From NCBI GenBank assembly GCA_963728475.1, contig CAVSKL010000001.1, positions 310,001 to 374,000 of the forward strand: 64,000 nucleotides of DNA, read 5' to 3'. Origin of the DNA: CAVSKL01 sp963728475 [NCBI: Candidatus Eiseniibacteriota bacterium]. GTDB taxonomy: Bacteria > Eisenbacteria > RBG-16-71-46 > JABDJR01. A program made the translations under genes and the position numbers. Positions 14,861 to 52,548 of the stretch are shown here, one piece after another. Each line of letters opens with the position of its first letter. Within the stretch, counting starts at the first letter, position 1. Under the pieces are notes generated by a model. That model did no database searches, was not told where the DNA came from, and saw only the letters and a list, made by a program, of their open reading frames with translations.

Positions 14861-15976
14861 TCACGCCTCCGTGAGGTGGGCGTCGGGGTGCAGCGCCGCC
14901 CACAGGTATCCGACAAGTTCCCGGGCCATGGCCACGACGGTCTTGTTGTGAAGTTTGCCTCGGGCGGACATGCGGAGGTAGCGTCGGTAGAGGCGCTCCT
15001 GGCCGCGATCGGCCAAGGCCAGGATCCGCGCGGGCTGTCCCTCGCGTCGTTTGGCGAGGGGGCCGGTGATCCGGGGCTTATAACGATGGTGCCAGGCCGC
15101 CTCGACCAGGAGTCGACGGACATGGCGGTTGCCGGTCTTGGTGATGGAACCGCGGCGTTCCGAGTCGCCGCTGGAGTGCTCCGAGGGCACCAGCCCAACG
15201 TAGGCGGCCAGTTGCCGTGGTGACCGGAACCGGCGGAAGTCGTGAAGTTCGGCCACCAGCCCCACCGCGGTCACGGTGTCGATGCCGCGGAAGCAGCGGA
15301 GCCAGGCCACGGGTTCCCGATAGGGTTGTTCCTGGGCGGCGGTGGCCAGCTCGAGATCGAGCTGGTGGAGCCGCTCGGTGAGCTGGTCCACGGTGAACAG
15401 ATAGCTCTCGAAGACGGCCTGGCTGGGCCGGTCCTCGAACTTGAGGGCTCGCAGCCACGCCATGTGCCGGGTTCCCCAGTGGTGCTTGGTCTGGCGGTAG
15501 ATGCAGTGGCGTCGGAGCAGGAACTTGCCCATCCGGTGCCGGGCCCGGGTCAGGTCCTGGCGCACGTCCTCCCGACACCGGAACAAGTCCCGCAACGCTT
15601 CATCGGACTCGCTGGGGGGATGGACCTCAGTGAGCAGCCGCGCCCGGAACAACTCGGCCAGCTTGCGGGCATCCCGCCGATCCGTCTTGATCCGGGTGCC
15701 GGGTCGGATCGGGGTCAGAGACGGAGCGATGACCGTGCAGCCCACCCCCAACTCCCGCAGCCGACGCTGGAGGACATAGCCGGTGGGACCGGCTTCGTAG
15801 CAGCACTCCACCGGCCCCGGGGCCTCTCGGCCCAACTTGCGGGCCAGCCGGCGAATGGCCTCCACCGTATGGGCTTCGCTCCACTCAATCGGCTCCTGCT
15901 GATCGGGGAGCAGCAGGGCCGCGTGGATCGAGTTCTTGTGGACGTCCAATCCCACGAAACTGGTATTCTCGTTCAC
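14861..15976 (-). CDS. IS110-family transposase
   Basis: 371 residues and apparently intact. The RuvC-like DEDD residues are visible: Asp in GLDVHK, Glu in CCYEAGPTGY, and two Asp in KTDRRDARKLAELF. The C-terminal transposase IS116/IS110/IS902 domain has FRGIDTVTAVGLVAEL, the serine region VGLVPSEHSSG and GSITKTGNRHVRRLLVEAAW. It would excise and integrate the element, using the structured RNA from the non-coding end. The GTG start has AAGGAG six bases upstream. Nothing suggests inactivation. Confidence 0.95.
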   Translation of the reverse strand: MNENTSFVGLDVHKNSIHAALLLPDQQEPIEWSEAHTVEAIRRLARKLGREAPGPVECCYEAGPTGYVLQRRLRELGVGCTVIAPSLTPIRPGTRIKTDRRDARKLAELFRARLLTEVHPPSESDEALRDLFRCREDVRQDLTRARHRMGKFLLRRHCIYRQTKHHWGTRHMAWLRALKFEDRPSQAVFESYLFTVDQLTERLHQLDLELATAAQEQPYREPVAWLRCFRGIDTVTAVGLVAELHDFRRFRSPRQLAAYVGLVPSEHSSGDSERRGSITKTGNRHVRRLLVEAAWHHRYKPRITGPLAKRREGQPARILALADRGQERLYRRYLRMSARGKLHNKTVVAMARELVGYLWAALHPDAHLTEA

Positions 15977-25423: not shown

Positions 25424-27833
25424 TCACCCGGAGTAGAAGCCTCCGGAACGGTTCCGGAGGGCCTCGGAGGGGGCGAACCGCGCGTCCACGGAACCGGCGA
25501 GCGCCTCCAGCCGTTCCACGACGTCGGCCACCCCGCGAGCGTCGGCGTAGCGGAGGAGCCCGCCCCGGAACGGCGGAAAGCCGGTCCCCATCACCATCCC
25601 CAGGTCCACGTCGAGCGGGCGGGAGACGATCCCCTCCTCCAGGCAACGAGCGGCCTCGTTCACCATGGGGAGCACCAGGCGGTCGAGCACGCGGTCGGGC
25701 TCGAACTCGCGGACGGGCGGGTTGCCGGCGGCGGCCGGCGCCTCCGGGGCCGGCCCCTGCGGTTTCCCCGCGGTGTAGATGTAGAACCCGCGGCCGGTCT
25801 TGCGGCCGAGGTGCCGGTCCTGCGCGAGCCGCGACAGGGTGGCGCTTGGGGGAAGCCGGTCACCGAAGGGCGCTTCCATGACGTGGGTGACCTTGTCCGC
25901 CACGTCGATCCCGATCCGGTCGAGGAGCGCGTACGGCCCCATGGGCATGCCGAAGTCGGTGAGGATCCGGTCCACGGTGCGGAGATCGGCGCCGGACTCG
26001 AGGCAGAGCCAGCGCTTCACCCAGATAGAAGGCCAGGAGCCGGTTCACCAGGAACCCCGGCCCGTCCCGTACCAGGATCGGGGTCTTGCCCAGGTCCAGG
26101 GCCAGCCGGTAGGCGGTGGCGACCGATTCGGGATCGCTCCCGGGCCCCGCCACCACCTCCACCAGCGGCATCCGGTCCACCGGGTTGAAGAAGTGAAGCC
26201 CCACCACCCGCTCGGGGCGGCGGGCGCCCTCGGCGATGTCGGCCACCCGGAGCGACGAGGTGTTGGTGGCGATCACGGTATGGTCGGGGACGGCCGCCTC
26301 GATCTCGGAGACCACCGCGCGTTTCACTCCGAGGTTTTCGACCACCGCCTCCACCACCAGATCGACCAGCCGGAAGCCGGTGTAGTCGAGGGTGAAGCTC
26401 AGCGCCTCCACCCGGCGCGTTCGCTCGGCCGGGGTGATCCGGCGGCGGCGGACGCTCCCGGCCCAGACGTCGCCCGCGGTCTTGAGCGCGCCGGCGAGCG
26501 GCCCGGGGGCGATGTCCTTGACCCGGATCGGGATGCCGTTCTCGCCGGCCAGCCAGGCGATCCCGCCCCCCATCACTCCGGCTCCGGCCACCGCCAGCCG
26601 CTTCACGGGGCGGGCGCGGCCGAGGTCGAGCCCCTCGGGCTCCTTGGCCCGGCCCGAGACCTGGAAGAGCCAGGTCAGGTTCTTGCTCGTCTCGGTGACG
26701 ATCGCCTCGCCCAAGAGCTTCGACTCGGTGCCGTAGGCCGCAACCTCGCCCCGCGAGAACCCGGCCATCACCGCGTCCAGGGCCATGAAGGGCGCGGGAT
26801 AGTGCGCGCGGCGGACGTTCTTGGCCAGGGCGCCGCGGGCCTTGCCGGCCACGAAGTTCCGGAGCGGCGGGAAGCCTCCGATCACGCGGTCGGTGCGGTC
26901 GGGCCGGTGAGGCTCCAGCCGGCGCTCGCCGGTCAGGATCTCCGCCGCGATCTTGCGCCCGCGGCCGGGGGGCACCAGCGCGTCCACCATCCCTCGCCGG
27001 AATGCGGGCTTGGCGGGAAGGGTCTTCCCGGCCAGGATGACGTCCAGAGCGGCGCGGAGACCCACCCGGCGTGGAAGGCGCTGGGTGCCGCCGAATCCGG
27101 GGAGGATCCCGAGGCGCACCTCGGGAAGACCGATCCGGACCGCGCCGGTGTCCTCGGCCACCCGCCAGGTGCAGGCCAGGGCCAGCTCGAACCCGCCCCC
27201 CAGACACGGCCCGGTGATCACCGCGGCGGTGGGCTTGGGGAAGCGGGCGATGGCCTCGAACACCGCTTGCCCGTAGGCGGACTTCTCCCGGCCGATCCGA
27301 GGATCAGTGACCCCGGCGATCTCCTCCACCGCGGCGCCGGCCACGAACATGTCCGGCTTGTCGCTGGCGAAGGCGAGGGCGTTCACCTTCTTCCGCGCCG
27401 CCTCGTCCAGCAGGTCTCGCAGACGCTCCATGACCGGCGTGGAGAGCTTGTTGACCTTCTCGCCGGGAAGATCGAAGACAATCCAGCCGATTCCCGCCGC
27501 GTCCACCTCCAGGCGCACGCCGGGCGAGTCGGCGGCGCCCTCCGCCGGCTTCGCCGGCGCGTTGAAGTCCAGGCTGGTCTGGGTCCGGCCGGGCTCGCCG
27601 GCCGTGGGTTCTCGCTCCACCGGTTGCGGGTTCTCCTTGCGCGCGTCGCGCGGGCCCAGCCGGTCGCGTGGGTCGCTGGGGTTCAGCGCATCGCGGGGGT
27701 TCAGCGGGTCGCGTGGATTCAGCGCATCGCGCGGGTCCAGCGCATCGCGGGGCTCCAGCGGGTCGCGCGGATTCAGCGCATCGCGGGGGTTCAGCGCATC
27801 GCGGGGCTCCAGCGGGTCGCGCGGGTCGCTCAT
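25424..27833 (-). pseudogene. fadJ: 3-hydroxyacyl-CoA dehydrogenase/enoyl-CoA hydratase (FadJ-like), frameshifted
   Basis: The gene encodes a hydratase domain (PCLGGGFELALACTW, LPEVRLGILPGFGGTQRLPRR), a linker, the NAD domain (AVAGAGVMGGGIAWLAG) and HFFNPVDRMPLVEVV up to FLVNRLLAFYLGEALAL, but then leaves frame. The rest (LESGADLRTVDRILTDFGMPMGP to the C-terminus at 25424) is in another frame. Removing one C of the CC pair at 26002-26003 restores a full protein of about 800 residues. The N-terminus has an unusual 6-residue repeat extension. ATG overlaps the fadI stop (ATGA). FadIJ would carry out the last steps of beta-oxidation. Either a real lesion or a sequencing error is possible. Confidence 0.85.
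27678..27821 (-). repeat. 18-bp coding repeat giving RD(A/P)L(E/N/D)P hexapeptides
   Basis: Eight in-frame 18-bp units encode residues 5-52 of the FadJ-like protein, each R-D-A/P-L-E/N/D-P, then two decayed units. This lies ahead of the hydratase domain, where FadJ proteins normally begin. Confidence 0.9.
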
Positions 27834-29122
27834 GCCCGCTCCAGGACCAGGGCCGCGCCCTGGCCTCCCCCGATGCAGAGCGTCACCAGTCCCAGCTCCA
27901 CGTCCCGCCGCCGCATTTCCAGGAGCAGGGTCAGCACCAGCCGCGCCCCGGTGGCACCCACCGGGTGGCCGAGGGCGATGGCGCCGCCGTTCACGTTGAG
28001 CTTCCCGCGGTCGATGGCGCCGATCGCGCGCGGGCGGGCGAGTTCCTCCCGCGCGAACCGGTCCGAGGCGAAGGCGATCTCGTTGGCGATCACCTGGGCG
28101 GCGAAAGCCTCGTTCATCTCGATCAGCCCGATGTCCCGCAGGACGACTCCCGCCCGGTCCAGGGCCGGCGGGGTGGCGTGCGCCGGCCCCAGCCCCATGC
28201 GGGCGGGCGAGAGCGCGGCGAACTCCGCCGAGCGCACCCAGCCCAGGACCGGGAGCCCGCGCTCGGCCACCGCCCGTTCGGAGGCCAGGATGAGCGCCCC
28301 CGCCCCGTCGGTGATCTGGCTCGAGTTCCCGGCGGTGACGGTGCCGTAGCGCCGGTCGAAGACCGGCTTCAGCTTGGCCAGCGCCTCGGGACTCTGTTCG
28401 TGGCGAATCCCCACGTCCTCCACCGCGAACCGATCGTACCTGGGAGGAAGCGGGGTGGGGGTGATCTCCTCGGCCAGCCGGCCGGCCTTCTGCGCCGCCG
28501 ACGCCCGCCGGTGGCTCATGAGCGCGAACGCGTCCTGGGCCTCGCGGGTGATTCCGAACTCCCGGGCCAGGACCTCGGCGGTCTCACCCATGTTGAGCCC
28601 GCAGTAGTTGTCGGTGAGCCCGATCGCCAGCCCGAGCACCGGTTTGAAGTCGGCGGGACGGAACGACGCGAACGCCCCCAGCCGCGCGCCCGGGGTGCGC
28701 GCCCGCATGAGCGCTTCGAACTTGGCCCGGGCCCGGTCGGAGTAGAGGAGCGGAATCCGCGACATGGATTCGGTTCCCCCCGCCGCCACCAGGTTCGCGG
28801 CGCCGGCGCGGATCCGGAGCACGGCGTCGGCCACCGCCTGGAGCGCCGAGCCGCAGTTGCGGTTGACGGTGTAGGCGGAGGTCCCCAGCGGGCAGCCGGC
28901 GTGGAGCGCGACAACCCGGGCGACGTTGGTGGCCTCGGCGGGCTGGGCGATGTTGCCGAAGATGACCTCGTCCAGGTCCTCGGGAGGGATTCCGGCGCGC
29001 TCGTAGGCCTCGCGGAGCGCGACCCGCCCCAGCTCGTGGGCAGGCACGTCCTTCTGGTCGCTTCCCGCCTTGGTGAACGGGGTCCGCACCCCCGCGACGA
29101 CGGCTACCCGTGGACTGGCCAT
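27830..29122 (-). CDS. fadI: Acetyl-CoA acyltransferase (thiolase)
   Basis: 430 residues, the longer thiolase type typical of FadI. The nucleophilic Cys90 sits in VNRNCGSALQ, the His in NGGAIALGHPVGATGARL and the second Cys in TLCIGGGQG; NEAFAAQ is also present. It cleaves 3-ketoacyl-CoA in the cytoplasm as partner of the FadJ-like protein encoded immediately downstream (ATGA overlap). An ambiguous promoter region of 136 bp separates it from the divergent phosphatase gene. The chain-length preference is not visible. Confidence 0.92.
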   Translation of the reverse strand: MASPRVAVVAGVRTPFTKAGSDQKDVPAHELGRVALREAYERAGIPPEDLDEVIFGNIAQPAEATNVARVVALHAGCPLGTSAYTVNRNCGSALQAVADAVLRIRAGAANLVAAGGTESMSRIPLLYSDRARAKFEALMRARTPGARLGAFASFRPADFKPVLGLAIGLTDNYCGLNMGETAEVLAREFGITREAQDAFALMSHRRASAAQKAGRLAEEITPTPLPPRYDRFAVEDVGIRHEQSPEALAKLKPVFDRRYGTVTAGNSSQITDGAGALILASERAVAERGLPVLGWVRSAEFAALSPARMGLGPAHATPPALDRAGVVLRDIGLIEMNEAFAAQVIANEIAFASDRFAREELARPRAIGAIDRGKLNVNGGAIALGHPVGATGARLVLTLLLEMRRRDVELGLVTLCIGGGQGAALVLERA

Positions 29123-32099: not shown

Positions 32100-32260
32100 G
32101 CGGTCGCTCGGACCGACCCCCGGACGGTCCATCGCTCCCTCTTCCGGAACGGGGGGCTCCGCTCGTGCATCAGGGCCCGCTCGTCCACGCGAGTCCCGCG
32201 CCCGACGTCCCGTCAGAGTCGCCGTCCGGCTCCCGGACGCGCCGCCCCGCGACGCCCGGC

Positions 32261-33043
32261 GACGAACCCGGGTATTACATTGCGGCACTTAAAGATACCC
32301 GGGTATTCTTGGGCCGCCCCCACGGTCCCGGCCGGACCGCTCTGCGCGGGCCGCACCGCCAACCGGGCACCACGAATCCGCGCTAGGGCCCCGCTTCCAC
32401 GGCGTCTTCAGCGGCGCGTGGCGTGCGCGCGGCGATCCGGCGAAGACCGGAACATGGCCGAGACCGGAACGCGCCCCGGCCTCGTGCGGCGAGGCCGTCG
32501 AGTCGCCGTCCGGCTCCCGGACGCCGTCCCACGACGACCGGCGGCGAACCCGGGTAATTCGTTGCGAAACTTACAGATACCCGGGTATTCCCCGGGCCGC
32601 TCCCGGCCGCCGCCCCCGGCGACGAACCCGGGTATTACATTGCGGCACTTAAAGATACCCGGGTATTCTTGGGCCGCCCCCACGGTCCCGGCCGGCCCGC
32701 TCGGCGCGGGCCGCACCGCCAACCGGCACCACGAATCCGCGCTAGGGCCCCGCTTCCACGGCGTCTTCAGCGGCGCGTGGCGTGCGCGCGGCGATCCGGC
32801 GAAGACCGGAACATGGCCGAGACCGGAACGCGCCCCGGCCTCGTGCGGCGAGGCCGTCGAGTCGCCGGCCGGCTCCCGGACGCCGTCCCACGACGACCGG
32901 CGGCGAACCCGGGTAATTCGTTGCGGAACTTACAGATACCCGGGTATTCTCCGGGCCGCTCCCGGCCGCGCCGTCCCACGACGACCGGCGGCGAACCCGG
33001 GTAATTCGTTGCGAAACTTACAGATACCCGGGTATTCCCCGGG
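32261..33043. repeat. 360-bp tandem duplication with five palindromic elements
   Basis: Unit 1 is 32261-32620, unit 2 is 32621-32979 (one base shorter, a handful of substitutions), and a third partial copy of the last 71 bp follows to 33043. Each unit carries one type A element (start 32266, 32626) and one type B element (start 32548, 32908), with another B at about 32994. In every element ACCCGGGTA recurs exactly 31 bp further on, with a variable middle. The zone 31878-33093 has no convincing gene and lies between convergent genes. Confidence 0.9.
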
Positions 33044-33093
33044 CCAGACTCCCGGCAATGCCACACTCCACGACGGCCGGCGGCCGGGCCCGG

Positions 33094-46988: not shown

Positions 46989-48140
46989 GTGAATCGTTGG
47001 ACCAAGCGGGTCATCTGGCTGGGGGTGGTGGCGGGGGGGGTGGTGGGGCTCCGATTCACCGTGTTCCGGTCGAAGCCGGTCCCGGTGACGGTCTATCAGG
47101 TCGCCAAGGGCCGGGTCGAGGACACCGTGGTCAATTCCCGGGCGGGGACGGTGGACTCGCGGCGCCGGGCGCAGATGAGCCCCGGGATCTCGGGGCTGGT
47201 CGCGTCCATCCCGGCCAAGAAGGGCGAAACCGTCACCAAGGGCCAGGTGCTGCTCCGCCTGGACGATTCCGAGTACCGGGCGCAGGTTACCCTGGCCTCG
47301 CGGTCCCGCGACGCCGCCCAGGCCGCCGCCGACCAGGCGTGCCTGGCCGCCGACCAGGCCGGCCGCGACTACCAGCGCGCCCGGAAGCTGGCCGACCGGA
47401 AGCTCATCTCCGACCAGGAGCTGGAGACCGCCCAGACCAAGAGCGCGTCCTCGGCCGCCGCCTGCAAGGCCGCCCAGGAGCAGGTGAAGCAGGCGCGGGC
47501 CCAGCTCGAGGTCGCCCAGGCCACCCTGGCCAAGACGGTGATGACCGCCCCCTTCGACGGCGTGGTGCTCGACGTCACCACCGAGGTCGGGGAGTGGATC
47601 AGCCCGTCACCCCCCGGCGTGCCCATCCCCCCGGTGATCGACGTCATCGATCCCGATTCGCTCTACGTGAGCGCGCCCCTGGACGAGGCCGACGTGGCCC
47701 GGGTCCGGATCGGGCTCCCGGTGCGGATCACCATGGACGCGTTCCGCGGCCGCTCCTTTCCCGGCACCCTGACCTACGTCTCGTCCTACGTGGAGACCAA
47801 GCAGGAGCAGAACCGCACCCTCAACGTGGAGGCGACCTTCACCGGCGGGGACCTTCCCGTCAACGTGCTCCCCGGCCTCTCCGCCGACATCGAGGTCATT
47901 CTCGACGCCCGCGACGAAGTGCTCCGCGTCCCCACCTACGCGCTTCTCGAGGGGAACCGGGTGCTGGTGGTGAAGGGAAACCAGCTCCGGAGCGTGGAGG
48001 TCGACACCGGCCTCCACAACTGGGAGTTCACCGAGGTGACTTCGGGGCTCGCGGCCGGCGATCTGGTGGTGGTTTCGCTCGACCGGCCCGAGGTCAAGGC
48101 GGGGGCCCACGTCAAGGTCACCGGCGAGAGCGGGAAGTGA
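46989..48140 (+). CDS. HlyD/MacA-like periplasmic adaptor (membrane fusion protein)
   Basis: 383 residues. One N-terminal TM helix is followed by a barrel-sandwich/lipoyl domain (SPGISGLVASIPAKKGETVTK in outline, VLLRLDDSEYRAQV), a long coiled-coil hairpin (about 85-180), the second lipoyl half (VMTAPFDGVVLDVTTEVGEW), a beta-barrel and the membrane-proximal domain. It links an inner-membrane transporter to an outer-membrane factor. GTG at 46989. It overlaps the ATPase gene (GTGA), forming an operon of four genes. Confidence 0.92.
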   Translation: MNRWTKRVIWLGVVAGGVVGLRFTVFRSKPVPVTVYQVAKGRVEDTVVNSRAGTVDSRRRAQMSPGISGLVASIPAKKGETVTKGQVLLRLDDSEYRAQVTLASRSRDAAQAAADQACLAADQAGRDYQRARKLADRKLISDQELETAQTKSASSAAACKAAQEQVKQARAQLEVAQATLAKTVMTAPFDGVVLDVTTEVGEWISPSPPGVPIPPVIDVIDPDSLYVSAPLDEADVARVRIGLPVRITMDAFRGRSFPGTLTYVSSYVETKQEQNRTLNVEATFTGGDLPVNVLPGLSADIEVILDARDEVLRVPTYALLEGNRVLVVKGNQLRSVEVDTGLHNWEFTEVTSGLAAGDLVVVSLDRPEVKAGAHVKVTGESGK

Positions 48141-48829
48141 TCGCGCTCGAGGCGATCACCCGCACCTACGAGGTGGGCGGCCGCCCGGTGCGGGCGCTCA
48201 AGGGAATCGACCTCCAAGTGGACGCGGGCGAGTACGTGTCGATCATGGGGCCTTCCGGTTCCGGGAAATCCACCCTCCTCAACATTCTCGGGTGCCTGGA
48301 CCGGCCCACCTCGGGAAGCTACCGGCTGGACGGCGAGGAGACCGCGCGGCTCTCCGAGACCGCACTCTCCCGCATCCGCCGCCACAAGATCGGTTTCGTG
48401 TTCCAGTTCTTCCACCTGGTCCCCCGGCTGACCGCGGCCGGTAACGTGGAGCTTCCCATGATCTTCGCCGGGATCGACCCCGGCGACCGGAAGGCGCGGA
48501 TCCGGCGGGCGCTGGAATCGGTGGGGCTGGCCGAGCGGATGGACCACCGCCCCGACCAGCTCTCGGGAGGCGAGCGGCAGCGGGTGGCCATCGCGCGGGC
48601 GGTGGTCCTCGAGCCCTCCATCCTTCTCGCCGACGAGCCCACCGGGAACCTGGACAGCAAGTCGGGATCGGAGATCGTGGGGCTGATCGAGAAGATGAAC
48701 GCGGGGGGGCTGACCCTGGTGGTGGTGACCCACGATCCGGCCATCGGCGGGCGGGCGCGGCGGCGGGTCCGGCTCGCCGACGGCGACCTGGTGGCCGACG
48801 AAAGAGAGGGAGGCCGTGCGGGGGATTGA
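48137..48829 (+). CDS. ABC transporter ATPase, LolD/MacB type
   Basis: 230 residues: Walker A GPSGSGKST, Q-loop FVFQFFHLVP, signature LSGGERQRVAIARA, Walker B ILLADEPTGNLDS and the H-loop VVTHDP. The FQFFHLVPRLTAAGNVELPM stretch is characteristic of the MacB/LolD subfamily. It powers the two FtsX-like permeases encoded next. GTG at 48137 overlaps the adaptor stop. Confidence 0.95.
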   Translation: MIALEAITRTYEVGGRPVRALKGIDLQVDAGEYVSIMGPSGSGKSTLLNILGCLDRPTSGSYRLDGEETARLSETALSRIRRHKIGFVFQFFHLVPRLTAAGNVELPMIFAGIDPGDRKARIRRALESVGLAERMDHRPDQLSGGERQRVAIARAVVLEPSILLADEPTGNLDSKSGSEIVGLIEKMNAGGLTLVVVTHDPAIGGRARRRVRLADGDLVADEREGGRAGD

Positions 48830-50021
48830 CCTCCTCCGGTTCTCGGCGGGCGCGCTCCGCGGGCACCGGCTCCGGACGGGGCTCTCGCTCCTGGGCGTGG
48901 CCATCGGAGTAGCCTCGGTCATCATGCTCACCAGCCTGGGGGAGGGCGCGCGCCTCTACGTGACCGGCGAATTCTCGTCGCTGGGCTCCAACCTCCTCAT
49001 CGTCCTTCCCGGCAAGACCGAGACCCAGGGCGCCACCCCCTTCGTGACCAACGCCCCCCACGACCTCACCGTGGACGACGCGGAGGCGATGGGCCGCCAG
49101 ATCCCGGAGATCCGCCGGGTCGCTCCGATCGCTCTCGGCACCGCGCCGGCGTCGTTCGGCGACCGGAGCCGGGACGTGACCGTGGTCGGGACCACCTACG
49201 AGGTGCTGGAGATCCGGAAGCTGGCGATGGGGGCGGGTCGATTTCTTCCCGAGAACACCCTCGACGCGCCGGTGTGCGTGCTCGGGGCCAAGGTGCAGCG
49301 CGAACTCTTCCCGGACCGGAATCCGCTGGGGGAACTCCTGCGCCTGGGCCCGTACCGCTTGAGGATCATCGGGGTGATCGCGCCGCGGGGCACCTCGATC
49401 GGCATGAACCTGGACGAGGTGGTGGAGCTTCCCGCCGAGACCGCGCTCCGGATGTTCAACCGGTCGAGCCTCTTCCGCATCATGGCCGAGGTGCGGAACC
49501 ACGACGAGATCGAGACCGCCAAGACCAAGGCGGTGAAGCTCCTCAAGGAACGTCACGACGGGCAGGAGGACGTGACCGTTCTCACCCAGGACGCGGTGCT
49601 GGCCACCTTCAACCAGATTCTCAGGATCCTCACCGCGGCCCTGGCGGGGATCGCCGCGATCTCGCTGGGGGTGGCGGGGATCGGCATCATGAACGTGATG
49701 CTGGTCTCGGTGTCGGAGCGGACCCGCGAGATCGGGCTCCTCAAGGCGATCGGGGCCACCCGCGCCCAGATCGTGAACGCGTTCCTGCTGGAGGCGGCGC
49801 TGGTCTCGACCTCGGGAGGGCTCCTGGGGCTCGCGGTGGGGATCGGGGCGGGCCGGCTCCTCCAGCACCTCTACCCCGAGTTCCCGGTGCAGCCGCCGGG
49901 GTGGGCGGTGGCGGCGGCGCTGGTGGTCTCGATCTCGGTGGGGCTGGGGTTCGGAAGCCTTCCCGCCCGGCGGGCGGCCGGCCTGGACCCGGTGGAAGCG
50001 CTCATGCGGAGGCGGGGATGA
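48816..50021 (+). CDS. FtsX/MacB-type ABC permease
   Basis: 401 residues: one N-terminal TM (RTGLSLLGVAIGVASVIMLTS in outline), a periplasmic MacB-PCD domain of about 230 residues, then three TM helices with the IGIMNVMLVSVSERTREIGL loop and LLEAALVSTSGGLLGLAVG. Non-fused ATPase and permease indicate a LolCDE-like or YknYZ-like arrangement. GGAGG precedes the GTG; it overlaps the ATPase gene by 14 bases. Confidence 0.94.
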   Translation: MRGIDLLRFSAGALRGHRLRTGLSLLGVAIGVASVIMLTSLGEGARLYVTGEFSSLGSNLLIVLPGKTETQGATPFVTNAPHDLTVDDAEAMGRQIPEIRRVAPIALGTAPASFGDRSRDVTVVGTTYEVLEIRKLAMGAGRFLPENTLDAPVCVLGAKVQRELFPDRNPLGELLRLGPYRLRIIGVIAPRGTSIGMNLDEVVELPAETALRMFNRSSLFRIMAEVRNHDEIETAKTKAVKLLKERHDGQEDVTVLTQDAVLATFNQILRILTAALAGIAAISLGVAGIGIMNVMLVSVSERTREIGLLKAIGATRAQIVNAFLLEAALVSTSGGLLGLAVGIGAGRLLQHLYPEFPVQPPGWAVAAALVVSISVGLGFGSLPARRAAGLDPVEALMRRRG

Positions 50022-50073
50022 GGGGGGCGCGCGGGCCCGCGGCGGGGCCTCGGACGGGGACGGAGGGGCGCGG

Positions 50074-51276
50074 ATGACCCTCGAGGACGTGCTCCACCAG
50101 TCGAGCCGCGCCATCCTCGGCCACCGCCAGCGATCGGCGCTCACCATGCTCGGGATCCTGATCGGGATCGCGTCGGTGATCCTGCTGACCTCGATCGGCG
50201 AGGGAACGCGGCTCTACATCCTCCAGCAGTTCACCCAGTTCGGAACCAACCTGGTGGCGGTGAATCCCGGCCGGACCGAGACCACCGGGGTGCCGGGGGC
50301 TCTGGGGGGGACCATCCATCCCCTCACCCTGGGCGACGCCCAGGCGCTGGACCGGGTGCGGGGGGTGACCGACGCGGTGCCGGTGACCATGGGCTCGGCG
50401 CCGGTGGAGCGCGAGGGGAAGAGCCGGAGCGTGTTCGTGTACGGGGTGACCTCGGCGGTCCCCGGCGTGTGGAGGATGGGGGTGCGGGTCGGGCGCTTCC
50501 TCCCCGAGGGGGACATGCGGTACGGGTCGCCGCTGGCGGTGCTGGGGCCCAAGCTCAAGCGGGAGCTGTTCGGGGACGCCAACGCCCTGGGCGAGCACGT
50601 GCGGATCGGAGGGGAACGGTTCCTGGTGATCGGGGTCATGGAGTCCAAGGGCCAGTTCCTGGGGTTCGACCTCGACGACGCCGCCTACGTCCCGGTGGCC
50701 CAGGCCATGCCGCTCTTCAACCTGGACGGGCTCCAGGAGATCGACGCCCTGGTCGCCAACGCCACCGTGGTGGACTCGGTGGTGACGCGGATGGAGGCGA
50801 TGCTGAAGGCGCGCCACGGCGGGGAGCTGGACTTCACCATCACCACCCAGACCGGGATGCTCGACACCCTGGACCGGATCATCTCCATCATCAGCCTGGC
50901 GGTGGGCGGGATCGGGGGGATCTCGCTCCTGGTCGGCGCGATCGGGATCCTCACCATGATGTGGATCTCGGTGAACGAGCGGACCGCCGAGATCGGACTG
51001 GCCAAGGCGGTGGGCGCCACCCCGCGCCAGATCCTCTGGCTCTACCTGAGCGAGGCGGCGATGCTCTCCACCGTGGGCGGGCTGGCCGGGCTCTTCGTGG
51101 GCTTCGGCCTGGCCCAGCTCATCCACGCGTTCGTCCCCGCCTTGCCCGTCCACACTCCCATGCTGTTCGTGATGCTGGCGGTGGCGGTGAGCCTGGCGGT
51201 GGGGCTCCTGAGCGGGATCCTCCCCGCGCGCCGGGCGGCGCGCCTGGATCCGGTGGAGGCGCTGGCGGCGGAGTAG
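50074..51276 (+). CDS. FtsX/MacB-type ABC permease, second copy
   Basis: 400 residues with the same plan as the upstream permease: TM (SALTMLGILIGIASVILLTS in outline), periplasmic domain, then WISVNERTAEIGLAKAVGATPRQILW and the last TMs ending in AVGLLSGILPARRAARLDPVEAL. Two different permeases with one ATPase suggest a heterodimer as in LolCDE. GGAGG and the usual spacing support the ATG. It is the last gene of the operon; convergent with the lipoprotein at 51287. Confidence 0.94.
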   Translation: MTLEDVLHQSSRAILGHRQRSALTMLGILIGIASVILLTSIGEGTRLYILQQFTQFGTNLVAVNPGRTETTGVPGALGGTIHPLTLGDAQALDRVRGVTDAVPVTMGSAPVEREGKSRSVFVYGVTSAVPGVWRMGVRVGRFLPEGDMRYGSPLAVLGPKLKRELFGDANALGEHVRIGGERFLVIGVMESKGQFLGFDLDDAAYVPVAQAMPLFNLDGLQEIDALVANATVVDSVVTRMEAMLKARHGGELDFTITTQTGMLDTLDRIISIISLAVGGIGGISLLVGAIGILTMMWISVNERTAEIGLAKAVGATPRQILWLYLSEAAMLSTVGGLAGLFVGFGLAQLIHAFVPALPVHTPMLFVMLAVAVSLAVGLLSGILPARRAARLDPVEALAAE

Positions 51277-51286
51277 GCGCGGGGGG

Positions 51287-51709
51287 TCAGCGGATCCCGG
51301 TGTCGTAGGAGAGGTCCGCCCGGACCCAGAGGCCGGGGGGAACGGTCACGGTGACCGGCGCCGGGGGCCGCGGGAAGAGCGCCCCCGCCTTCCCGGGCAC
51401 CACGCGGTAGACGCCGGGGTCGACCGGGAGCCGGTAGATACCGTCGGATCCTGACCGGACCTCCTTCACCAACCGGCCGTTCACGTCCTGGATGTCGATG
51501 GTGGCGGAAATGGGCCGGTCGGGGCAGGAGCCGTCGGCGGGCTCGACCGGGCACATGGGCCCCTCGGTCACCAGCCCCGCGATCCCGGTCCCGACGTTCA
51601 CGCCGGTGGGGACGACGGGCTCGGTCACGGCCGGAGTTCCCCGGCTGCAGCCGGCCAGCGCCAGCGCGGCGGCGGCGGCGAGAGCGACCCCCAGCAGATG
51701 CGGCTTCAT
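51287..51709 (-). CDS. Lipoprotein with transthyretin-like/carboxypeptidase-regulatory-type domain
   Basis: 140 residues: leader MKPHLLGVALAAAAALALAGC gives a clear lipobox (shown here only as one run of 21 shortened: ALALAGC). The mature part has GTGIAGLVTEGPMCP, ATIDIQDVNGRLVKEVRSG, GIYRLPVDPGVYRVVPG, as in CarboxypepD_reg/transthyretin-like folds. It is at the membrane and its role is unknown. The start GGGGGA-ATACGCC lies inside a 56-bp duplication, so two more in-frame-like start modules lie upstream (see the leader ORFs). Confidence 0.8.
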   Translation of the reverse strand: MKPHLLGVALAAAAALALAGCSRGTPAVTEPVVPTGVNVGTGIAGLVTEGPMCPVEPADGSCPDRPISATIDIQDVNGRLVKEVRSGSDGIYRLPVDPGVYRVVPGKAGALFPRPPAPVTVTVPPGLWVRADLSYDTGIR

Positions 51710-51800
51710 GGCGTATCCCCCGGGGACCCGGCGGCGAGAGCGACCCCCAGCAGATGCGGCTTCATGGCGTATCCCCCGGGGACCCGGCGGCGAGAGCGAG
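51675..51800. repeat. 56-bp tandem duplication over a gene start
   Basis: Two full copies and a short third carry the ribosome site, ATG and first codons of the lipoprotein gene; equivalent ATGs are at 51709, 51765 and 51821, each 56 bases apart. Confidence 0.92.
51706..51765 (-). CDS. Leader ORF, 19 codons, overlapping the lipoprotein start
   Basis: Reads MKPHLLGVALAAGSPGDTP, then TGA that overlaps the real ATG at 51709 as ATGA. It begins with the same residues as the lipoprotein signal peptide and has the same GGGGGA ribosome site. It exists because of the 56-bp duplication. Translation is possible, but a functional role is inferred only. Confidence 0.45.
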   Translation of the reverse strand: MKPHLLGVALAAGSPGDTP

Positions 51801-51821
51801 CGGCGGGATGCCGAGTTTCAT
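51762..51821 (-). CDS. Upstream leader ORF, 19 codons
   Basis: Reads MKLGIPPLALAAGSPGDTP, ends in TGA overlapping the next ATG at 51765 as ATGA. The ATG at 51821 has GGAGGA six bases upstream, the best ribosome site of the three, so ribosomes would enter here first. Confidence 0.45.
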   Translation of the reverse strand: MKLGIPPLALAAGSPGDTP

Positions 51822-51840
51822 GGAGTTCCTCCCAAGCGCG

Positions 51841-51892
51841 CCGGAACCGCGCCCCCGGAACCCGGGCCGGAACCGCGCCCCCGGAACCCAGT
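51841..51892. repeat. 26-bp direct repeat
   Basis: CCGGAACCGCGCCCCCGGAA plus six bases, twice (51841, 51867), between the lipoprotein's leader ORFs and the ankyrin gene stop. Confidence 0.9.
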
Positions 51893-51924
51893 ATATACCC
51901 GGGTCCCTCATCGGAAAGCGCCCG

Positions 51925-52548
51925 CTACTCCTTCGCCCCCCGCGCCTGGAGGAGCTTGGCCGCCGCCTCGCAGCCGGCCACGATCTCGCGCCGGCGCTGG
52001 GGAAGCGCGGTGGGGGTGCCGGCGCTCCCAGTGCGGGCCTGGGCCAGCGCGATCTCGAGCGCGGTCTGTCCCTGGGGATTCTTGAGGTCGGGGTTGGCCC
52101 CCTTGTCCAGCAGCATCTCCACCACGGCGGCGTGCCCCCACAGCGAGGCCAGGTGGATGGGGGTCCCGAAACCAGTGGAGGTATTGATGAGCGAGCCGTC
52201 GTCGCGGAGCATCTGCTTCACCCGGTCGGCCAGCCCCAGGGCCGAGGCCAGGTGCAGGTTCAGCTTCGCCCCCGCGGCGTCCAGGTAGCGCACCATGCCC
52301 GCGTGGCCCTTCTCGTTGGCCCAGGCGATGGGCGCCATGTGATACACGTCGTCGAGCGCGTCCAGATCGGCGCCGTTGGCGATCAGGAGATCGACCATGG
52401 CCTCGTGATTGTTGAGCGCGGCGTAGTGGAGCGGCGTGGCCCCCTCCTCCTTCGCCTTCACCAGGCTCGGGTCCTCGGCCAGCAGGTCCCGGGCCCGTCC
52501 CAGGTCGCCGATCCGAACCGTATTGAAAAACTCATGGGCGTCGCTCAT
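51925..52548 (-). CDS. Ankyrin-repeat protein
   Basis: 207 residues, about five ankyrin repeats: GATPLHYAALNNHEAMVDLL, DVYHMAPIAWANEKGHAGMV, and GTPIHLASLWGHAAVVEMLL among them, preceded by a short N-terminal helical part (MSDAHEFFNTVRIGDLGRA). Its C-terminus is a helix of about 40 residues. It is probably a cytoplasmic protein-binding module. ATG overlaps the HisN-like stop (ATGA), so the two are co-expressed. Confidence 0.9.
   Translation of the reverse strand: MSDAHEFFNTVRIGDLGRARDLLAEDPSLVKAKEEGATPLHYAALNNHEAMVDLLIANGADLDALDDVYHMAPIAWANEKGHAGMVRYLDAAGAKLNLHLASALGLADRVKQMLRDDGSLINTSTGFGTPIHLASLWGHAAVVEMLLDKGANPDLKNPQGQTALEIALAQARTGSAGTPTALPQRRREIVAGCEAAAKLLQARGAKE

Follow-up and report, generated by a model that had tools for sequence, protein, structure and literature searches.

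A perfect 56-bp tandem duplication at the start of a lipoprotein gene, and two short upstream ORFs that are probably translated, in a repeat-rich stretch of a bacterial genome

The minus strand of the window (the whole stretch of DNA analysed, 64,000 nucleotides) carries the complete feature described here: a tandem repeat, three ATGs, two leader ORFs and the lipoprotein gene that they precede. The gene is opened by the innermost ATG and encodes 140 aa, with a signal peptide ending in LALAGC, which we take to be the lipobox, and the C-terminus YDTGIR. A carboxypeptidase regulatory-like domain (PF13620) was matched weakly (E 0.00098; 19.9 bits against a cut-off of 32.3). The array lies between this gene and an ankyrin-repeat gene recognised by Ank family matches. 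Features are listed below in the direction of the minus strand.

51925-52548: ankyrin-repeat gene
51890-51895 (-): TATACT, possible -10 element
51840-51889 (-): 26-bp tandem duplication, also perfect, within the presumed 5' untranslated region
51822-51835 (-): outer ribosome site, TTGGGAGGAACTCC, before the ATG at 51821
51762-51821 (-): outer leader ORF, 19 codons, MKLGIPPLALAAGSPGDTP followed by a stop that overlaps the ATG at 51765
51673-51799 (-): 56-bp tandem repeat
51706-51765 (-): inner leader ORF, 19 codons, MKPHLLGVALAAGSPGDTP followed by a stop that overlaps the ATG at 51709
51287-51709 (-): lipoprotein gene, starting MKPHLLGVALAAAAALALAGC
50074-51276 (+): second permease of a neighbouring operon

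The repeat was delimited with TRF (period 56, about 2.3 (2.27) copies, 100% matches, score 254) and by self-comparison. At a lag of 56 a single perfect run of 71 bases was obtained (51799-51729 against 51743-51673), and at a lag of 112 a 15-base match, a third and partial copy of the unit, which is not a chance match. The array thus comprises two whole units plus 15 bp, well above chance expectation. Each whole unit contains the ribosome site GGGGGA, an ATG and 12 signal-peptide codons, and the duplication of these elements proposed in an earlier note on this DNA was borne out by both methods. The 26-bp duplication, found by TRF and as a lag-26 run, is separate from the 56-bp array and lies 40 bp upstream of it.

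The ATGs stand at 51821 (outer), 51765 (middle) and 51709 (inner). The earlier note had described three tandem start modules; the middle and inner modules are indeed copies of each other, but the outer one, 56 bp beyond the middle ATG, is not identical to them and has only 15 bp surely in common with the unit. When the outer module was aligned to the unit at the ATG, 23 of 52 positions outside the shared stretch were identical. Among 1024 other ATGs of the window (mean 17.8 matches, sd 3.1), 7% reached 23, so this comparison does not establish that the outer module is related to the unit, and the outer module was dropped as a proven copy.

Both leader ORFs stop on the following start codon as ATGA, at 51765 and 51709, exactly as had been claimed. 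The geometry follows from two properties of the sequence, namely a repeat period of 2 mod 3 and a start that reads ATGA: when such a start is shifted by 2 mod 3 bases, its ORF ends on the next start, provided that no stop is met before it. Duplications of 36-100 bp spanning the lipoprotein start were simulated on the one-unit form. An ATGA junction resulted in 32% of cases; 34% gave an extension in frame, 27% ran through in a different frame and 7.5% stopped earlier. The ATGA outcome was obtained in 15% of simulations over 21 predicted ATG genes and in 32% over the 10 that have an ATGA start. Given a duplication, the relay geometry is unsurprising.

Leaders ended by ATGA are less common without a duplication. 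Only 11 of the 274 ATGA words in the window, these modules included, end an ORF whose ATG lies 30-90 bases upstream; for predicted genes starting NTGA, 6 of 17 have such a leader no more than 90 bases away, in some cases lying in the gene before. Five gene pairs in the window overlap by four bases (28 adjacent same-strand pairs; 43 predicted genes), so the organism uses such junctions in any case. The second, inner leader is accounted for by the duplication, which leaves the outer leader as a modest coincidence or the product of an older event. This counts against the duplication as a full explanation: with one unit, the outer leader and its ATGA junction at 56-bp spacing are already present (deletion of one unit leaves this leader coupled to the lipoprotein), and a single duplication does not account for it. 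The outer ribosome site is also unusually good for a remnant.

An alternative history makes the outer ATG the original start of the gene (zero-unit form MKLGIPPLALAAAAALALAGC) and has the units arrive afterwards, possibly out of a different signal-peptide gene. When both units are deleted, the lipoprotein is read in frame from the outer ATG, the one whose ribosome site is best. The GCCGCC in the shared stretch is 12 codons away from the outer and from the inner ATG alike, an equal spacing which hints that the outer ATG is a former gene start or an older, diverged copy. Against this history, the window holds no further copy of the unit (other BLAST matches were of 15 bases or fewer), and no close relative showing the zero-unit form was found. 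We regard it as an appreciable but minor possibility; it is compatible with the explanation preferred here, a recent 56-bp duplication.

Ribosome-site strength was calculated as the free energy of the duplex with the anti-Shine-Dalgarno sequence. The outer ATG has GGAGG (within GGGAGG) five to six bases off, with a duplex of -10.2 kcal/mol, or -9.9 kcal/mol after a spacing penalty; this strength was equalled by 2.8% of 400 random ATGs and by 7% of 42 predicted genes. For the middle and inner ATGs the spacing-penalised value is -8.6 kcal/mol, and the median over the 42 predicted gene starts, some of which are uncertain, is -3.9 kcal/mol. Each leader therefore has a ribosome site of its own (-9.9 and -8.6 kcal/mol), and the placing of the strongest site on the outermost ATG in the earlier note agrees with the calculation. 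The predicted cost of opening the start in a 65-nt context is 8.4 kcal/mol for the outer site vs 14.5 kcal/mol for the inner sites. In a transcript beginning at 51889 the costs lie closer together (outer 8.4, middle 8.9, inner 11.1 kcal/mol), so masking of the inner site is not firm.

These calculations bear on another reading, in which the leaders are untranslated or inconsequential and only direct initiation at 51709 yields the lipoprotein. In its favour, the inner ribosome site is strong, being equalled by only 12% of the 42 predicted genes. Against it, the inner site is less open than most (82.5% of the 400 random ATGs are at least as open), and the outer site is both stronger and more open. 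Initiation at the inner ATG alone is held to be improbable.

Upstream of the three ATGs, TATACT is the sole TANNNT of its strand in 51701-52010, and its assignment as a -10 element is a weak inference from this motif search; a stricter sigma-70 promoter scan of 51200-52000 gave no match. No terminator-like site was found in 51200-52000, no Rfam match reached the gathering score across the window, and all of 200 shuffled sequences fold more stably than the 289-nt region itself (z +3.27). A leader-peptide attenuator or riboswitch was rejected on these three counts, each of which disfavours it.

The surroundings are rich in repeats. Arrays were counted at a period of at least 20, at least 90% matches and a score of at least 80, and by this filter nine near-perfect ones, with periods of 22-359, occur in the 64 kb of the window, the 26-bp duplication among them. 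One array was found in 67 control loci (1,277,122 bases), and none in the 12 control loci with G+C above 0.67 (215,065 bases); these controls are mostly assembled contigs (bins) around ispG from several phyla, many of them from other phyla, and could under-report repeats. Related or homologue-bearing genomes likewise gave one array in 23 loci (256,363 bases), with locus L097 belonging to both sets. The excess over the controls is large, and its ratio is rough because the controls are mainly ispG contigs from several phyla. Tandem duplication seems to be a mutational habit of the host genome.

Repeats were also observed at other positions. A 359-bp tandem duplication (32255-32969, 98%) and an 88-bp one (32881-33056, 95%) overlap each other where no genes are predicted. 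The N-terminus of the ORF at 25860-27833 (-) contains a series of NPRDAL-like hexapeptides, encoded by in-frame 18-bp repeats at 27673-27826. That ORF overlaps the gene upstream of it (27830-29122, presumably thiolase-like) by four bases, and it also overlaps the frame at 25424-26020 (-); the two frames match neighbouring stretches of locus L001 and are taken by us to be FadB/FadJ-like, perhaps one gene split by a frameshift. An ORF at 14861-15976 (-) resembles, in our judgement, IS110-type transposases.

An assembly artefact, in which the duplicate unit would be absent from the organism, might be suspected from the 100% identity of the unit copies. In other arrays of the window the copies have diverged (92-94% matches by TRF), which argues against this reading, and short-read assembly tends toward collapsing such repeats, not adding them. 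An artefact is considered very unlikely. The perfect identity of the two units suggests that the duplication is recent.

Homologues of the lipoprotein (E ≤ 0.001) were found in 4 of 61, 7 of 119, 1 of 117, 1 of 41 and 12 of 396 genomes, the last set overlapping the 7/119 and 1/41 sets and some of the matches being spurious; the best identity was 46%. Their occurrence is patchy. The C-terminal end D-T/S-G-I/L/M-R is common to 13 of the 17 loci examined; of the remaining loci, L104, L116 and L117 look spurious and the match at L114 was not recovered on re-examination. No tandem repeat of period 15 or more was found at the gene start in any of the 13 homologues with the conserved C-terminus. These homologues are too remote to tell the ancestral form of the start region.

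Searches for closer relatives were negative within their scope. A search of genome contigs with the lipoprotein gave 106 pattern matches, none of which was confirmed as a relative, and no match to it at E ≤ 1e-5 was found in the 80 loci listed for the ispG of the window (≤ 73% identity). In 14 stretches (5-20 kb) around the second permease in genomes of the first phylum there was none at E ≤ 1e-8; at E ≤ 1 these stretches yielded one 39-residue match (E 0.57).

The permease belongs to a MacA/MacB-like operon at 46989-51276 (+) with two successive permeases. At E ≤ 1e-75 the second permease was matched in 32 of 247 genomes of the first phylum (30 with two matches; best identity 64%) and in 1 of 346 genomes of the second phylum, for which 150 of 150 drawn genomes gave a match at E ≤ 0.001; none of 101 genomes of the third phylum, searched without a positive control, matched at E ≤ 1e-75. 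The permease pair was found in all 14 related stretches, with other DNA between the genes in L124 and L126 and several contigs ending mid-operon. A MacB-type permease search of viral contigs gave no match.

The same evidence was weighed for a selected translational relay, in which strong loading at the outer ATG would be followed by reinitiation through two leaders and the number of units would set lipoprotein output. Such a relay would be served by the outer site, which is the strongest and locally the easiest to open (8.4 vs 14.5 kcal/mol), by the position of the sole TANNNT of the scanned stretch upstream of all ATGs, and by the fact that in the zero-, one- and two-unit states alike the lipoprotein can be read in frame from an ATG that has a ribosome site before it. 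It is opposed by the failure to find a close relative of any copy number, by the 13 distant homologues with the conserved C-terminus, which have no tandem array at the start, by the commonness of the geometry under simulated duplication, and by the nearness of the longer-transcript opening costs to one another (8.4, 8.9 and 11.1 kcal/mol). A selected relay is judged distinctly improbable. Less credence still is given to a natural serial relay of two bicistronic-type leaders, created by a repeat prone to slippage, in which gain and loss of the 56-bp unit tunes the lipoprotein between sibling cells, its frame intact in every state. Because the homologues are distant and none has an array at its start, there is no sign of array conservation or of copy-number regulation; the adjustment of expression by copy number suggested in the earlier note has no support, a selected copy-number rheostat has no direct support, and we infer that copy number is not under selection. 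Frame-switching phase variation was also considered and is out, since zero, one and two units all retain an in-frame lipoprotein ATG.

Comparison was made with known systems. For overlapping gene pairs (ATGA/TGATG), strict translational coupling was reported in 13 of 14 tested pairs (PMC6728339). The present junctions resemble these pairs in the ATGA stop/start overlap and in a ribosome site within the upstream ORF; those pairs are annotated genes, whereas the upstream ORFs here have 19 codons and one of them is duplication-born. In E. coli, iraD has three translated short leader ORFs, of which the third overlaps the iraD start with its stop, is coupled to it and is repressed by CsrA, the other two being without effect (PMC5574718). 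That third leader is likewise a natural short ORF whose stop overlaps the start of a gene; unlike iraD, with its two ineffective leaders, its CsrA repression and no repeats mentioned in the abstract, the present locus has a repeat and no known regulator. The integron ORF-11/ORF-18 in attI1 has its own ribosome site and, through coupling, makes the following gene better translated (PMC8876359). It shares with the leaders here the arrangement of a short ORF with its own ribosome site ahead of a gene, and differs in that it is described mainly for cassettes without a ribosome site and owes its junction to the insertion of a cassette, where the present one comes from a duplicated start. In the bicistronic design (BCD; Mutalik et al., as cited in PMC5995908), a leader of fewer than 20 codons follows a first ribosome site, a second ribosome site is embedded in the end of the leader, and stop and start are frame-shifted by one base. 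The short leader, the ribosome site inside its end and the one-base shift are found here also, but the BCD is engineered with one leader, and the present case is natural with two leaders in series. By analogy the locus would work, if at all, as these systems do, its peculiarity being two serial leaders joined by a repeat. No duplicated-start relay was found among the matches listed in the open literature, which does not prove its absence from print.

The explanation preferred here, and held to be probably correct, is a recent 56-bp duplication, with leaders that are probably translated and supply the true start with ribosomes by ordinary termination-reinitiation. A tandem duplication would have copied the stretch with the ribosome site, ATG and first lipoprotein codons, and the displaced start would thereby have become a 19-codon ORF stopping on the next start (56 = 2 mod 3; start ATGA). 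Transcription would begin upstream of the leaders, the extra ORFs would probably be translated, and ribosomes ending at ATGA would probably reinitiate at the following ATG, so that synthesis of the lipoprotein would draw both on reinitiation coupling and on ribosomes that enter directly at the gene's own site. Given the calculated site strengths and opening costs and the TATACT upstream, leader translation followed by reinitiation at ATGA is physically reasonable. The passage of ribosomes through both leaders, as the earlier note had it, is plausible on account of the good sites, the ATGA overlaps, the less accessible inner site and published coupling; but such junctions commonly result when an ATGA start is duplicated (32% of simulated duplications), and the window has many tandem duplications.

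As far as the sequence allows a judgement, the array is probably a by-product of a repeat-prone genome with a plausible effect on translation. Duplication of an ATGA start region readily produces ATGA-coupled leaders when the duplicated length is 2 mod 3. Should the leaders be translated, the locus would be a clean case of one slippage event adding a coupled upstream ORF, and duplicated starts may then be a birth route for leader peptides.
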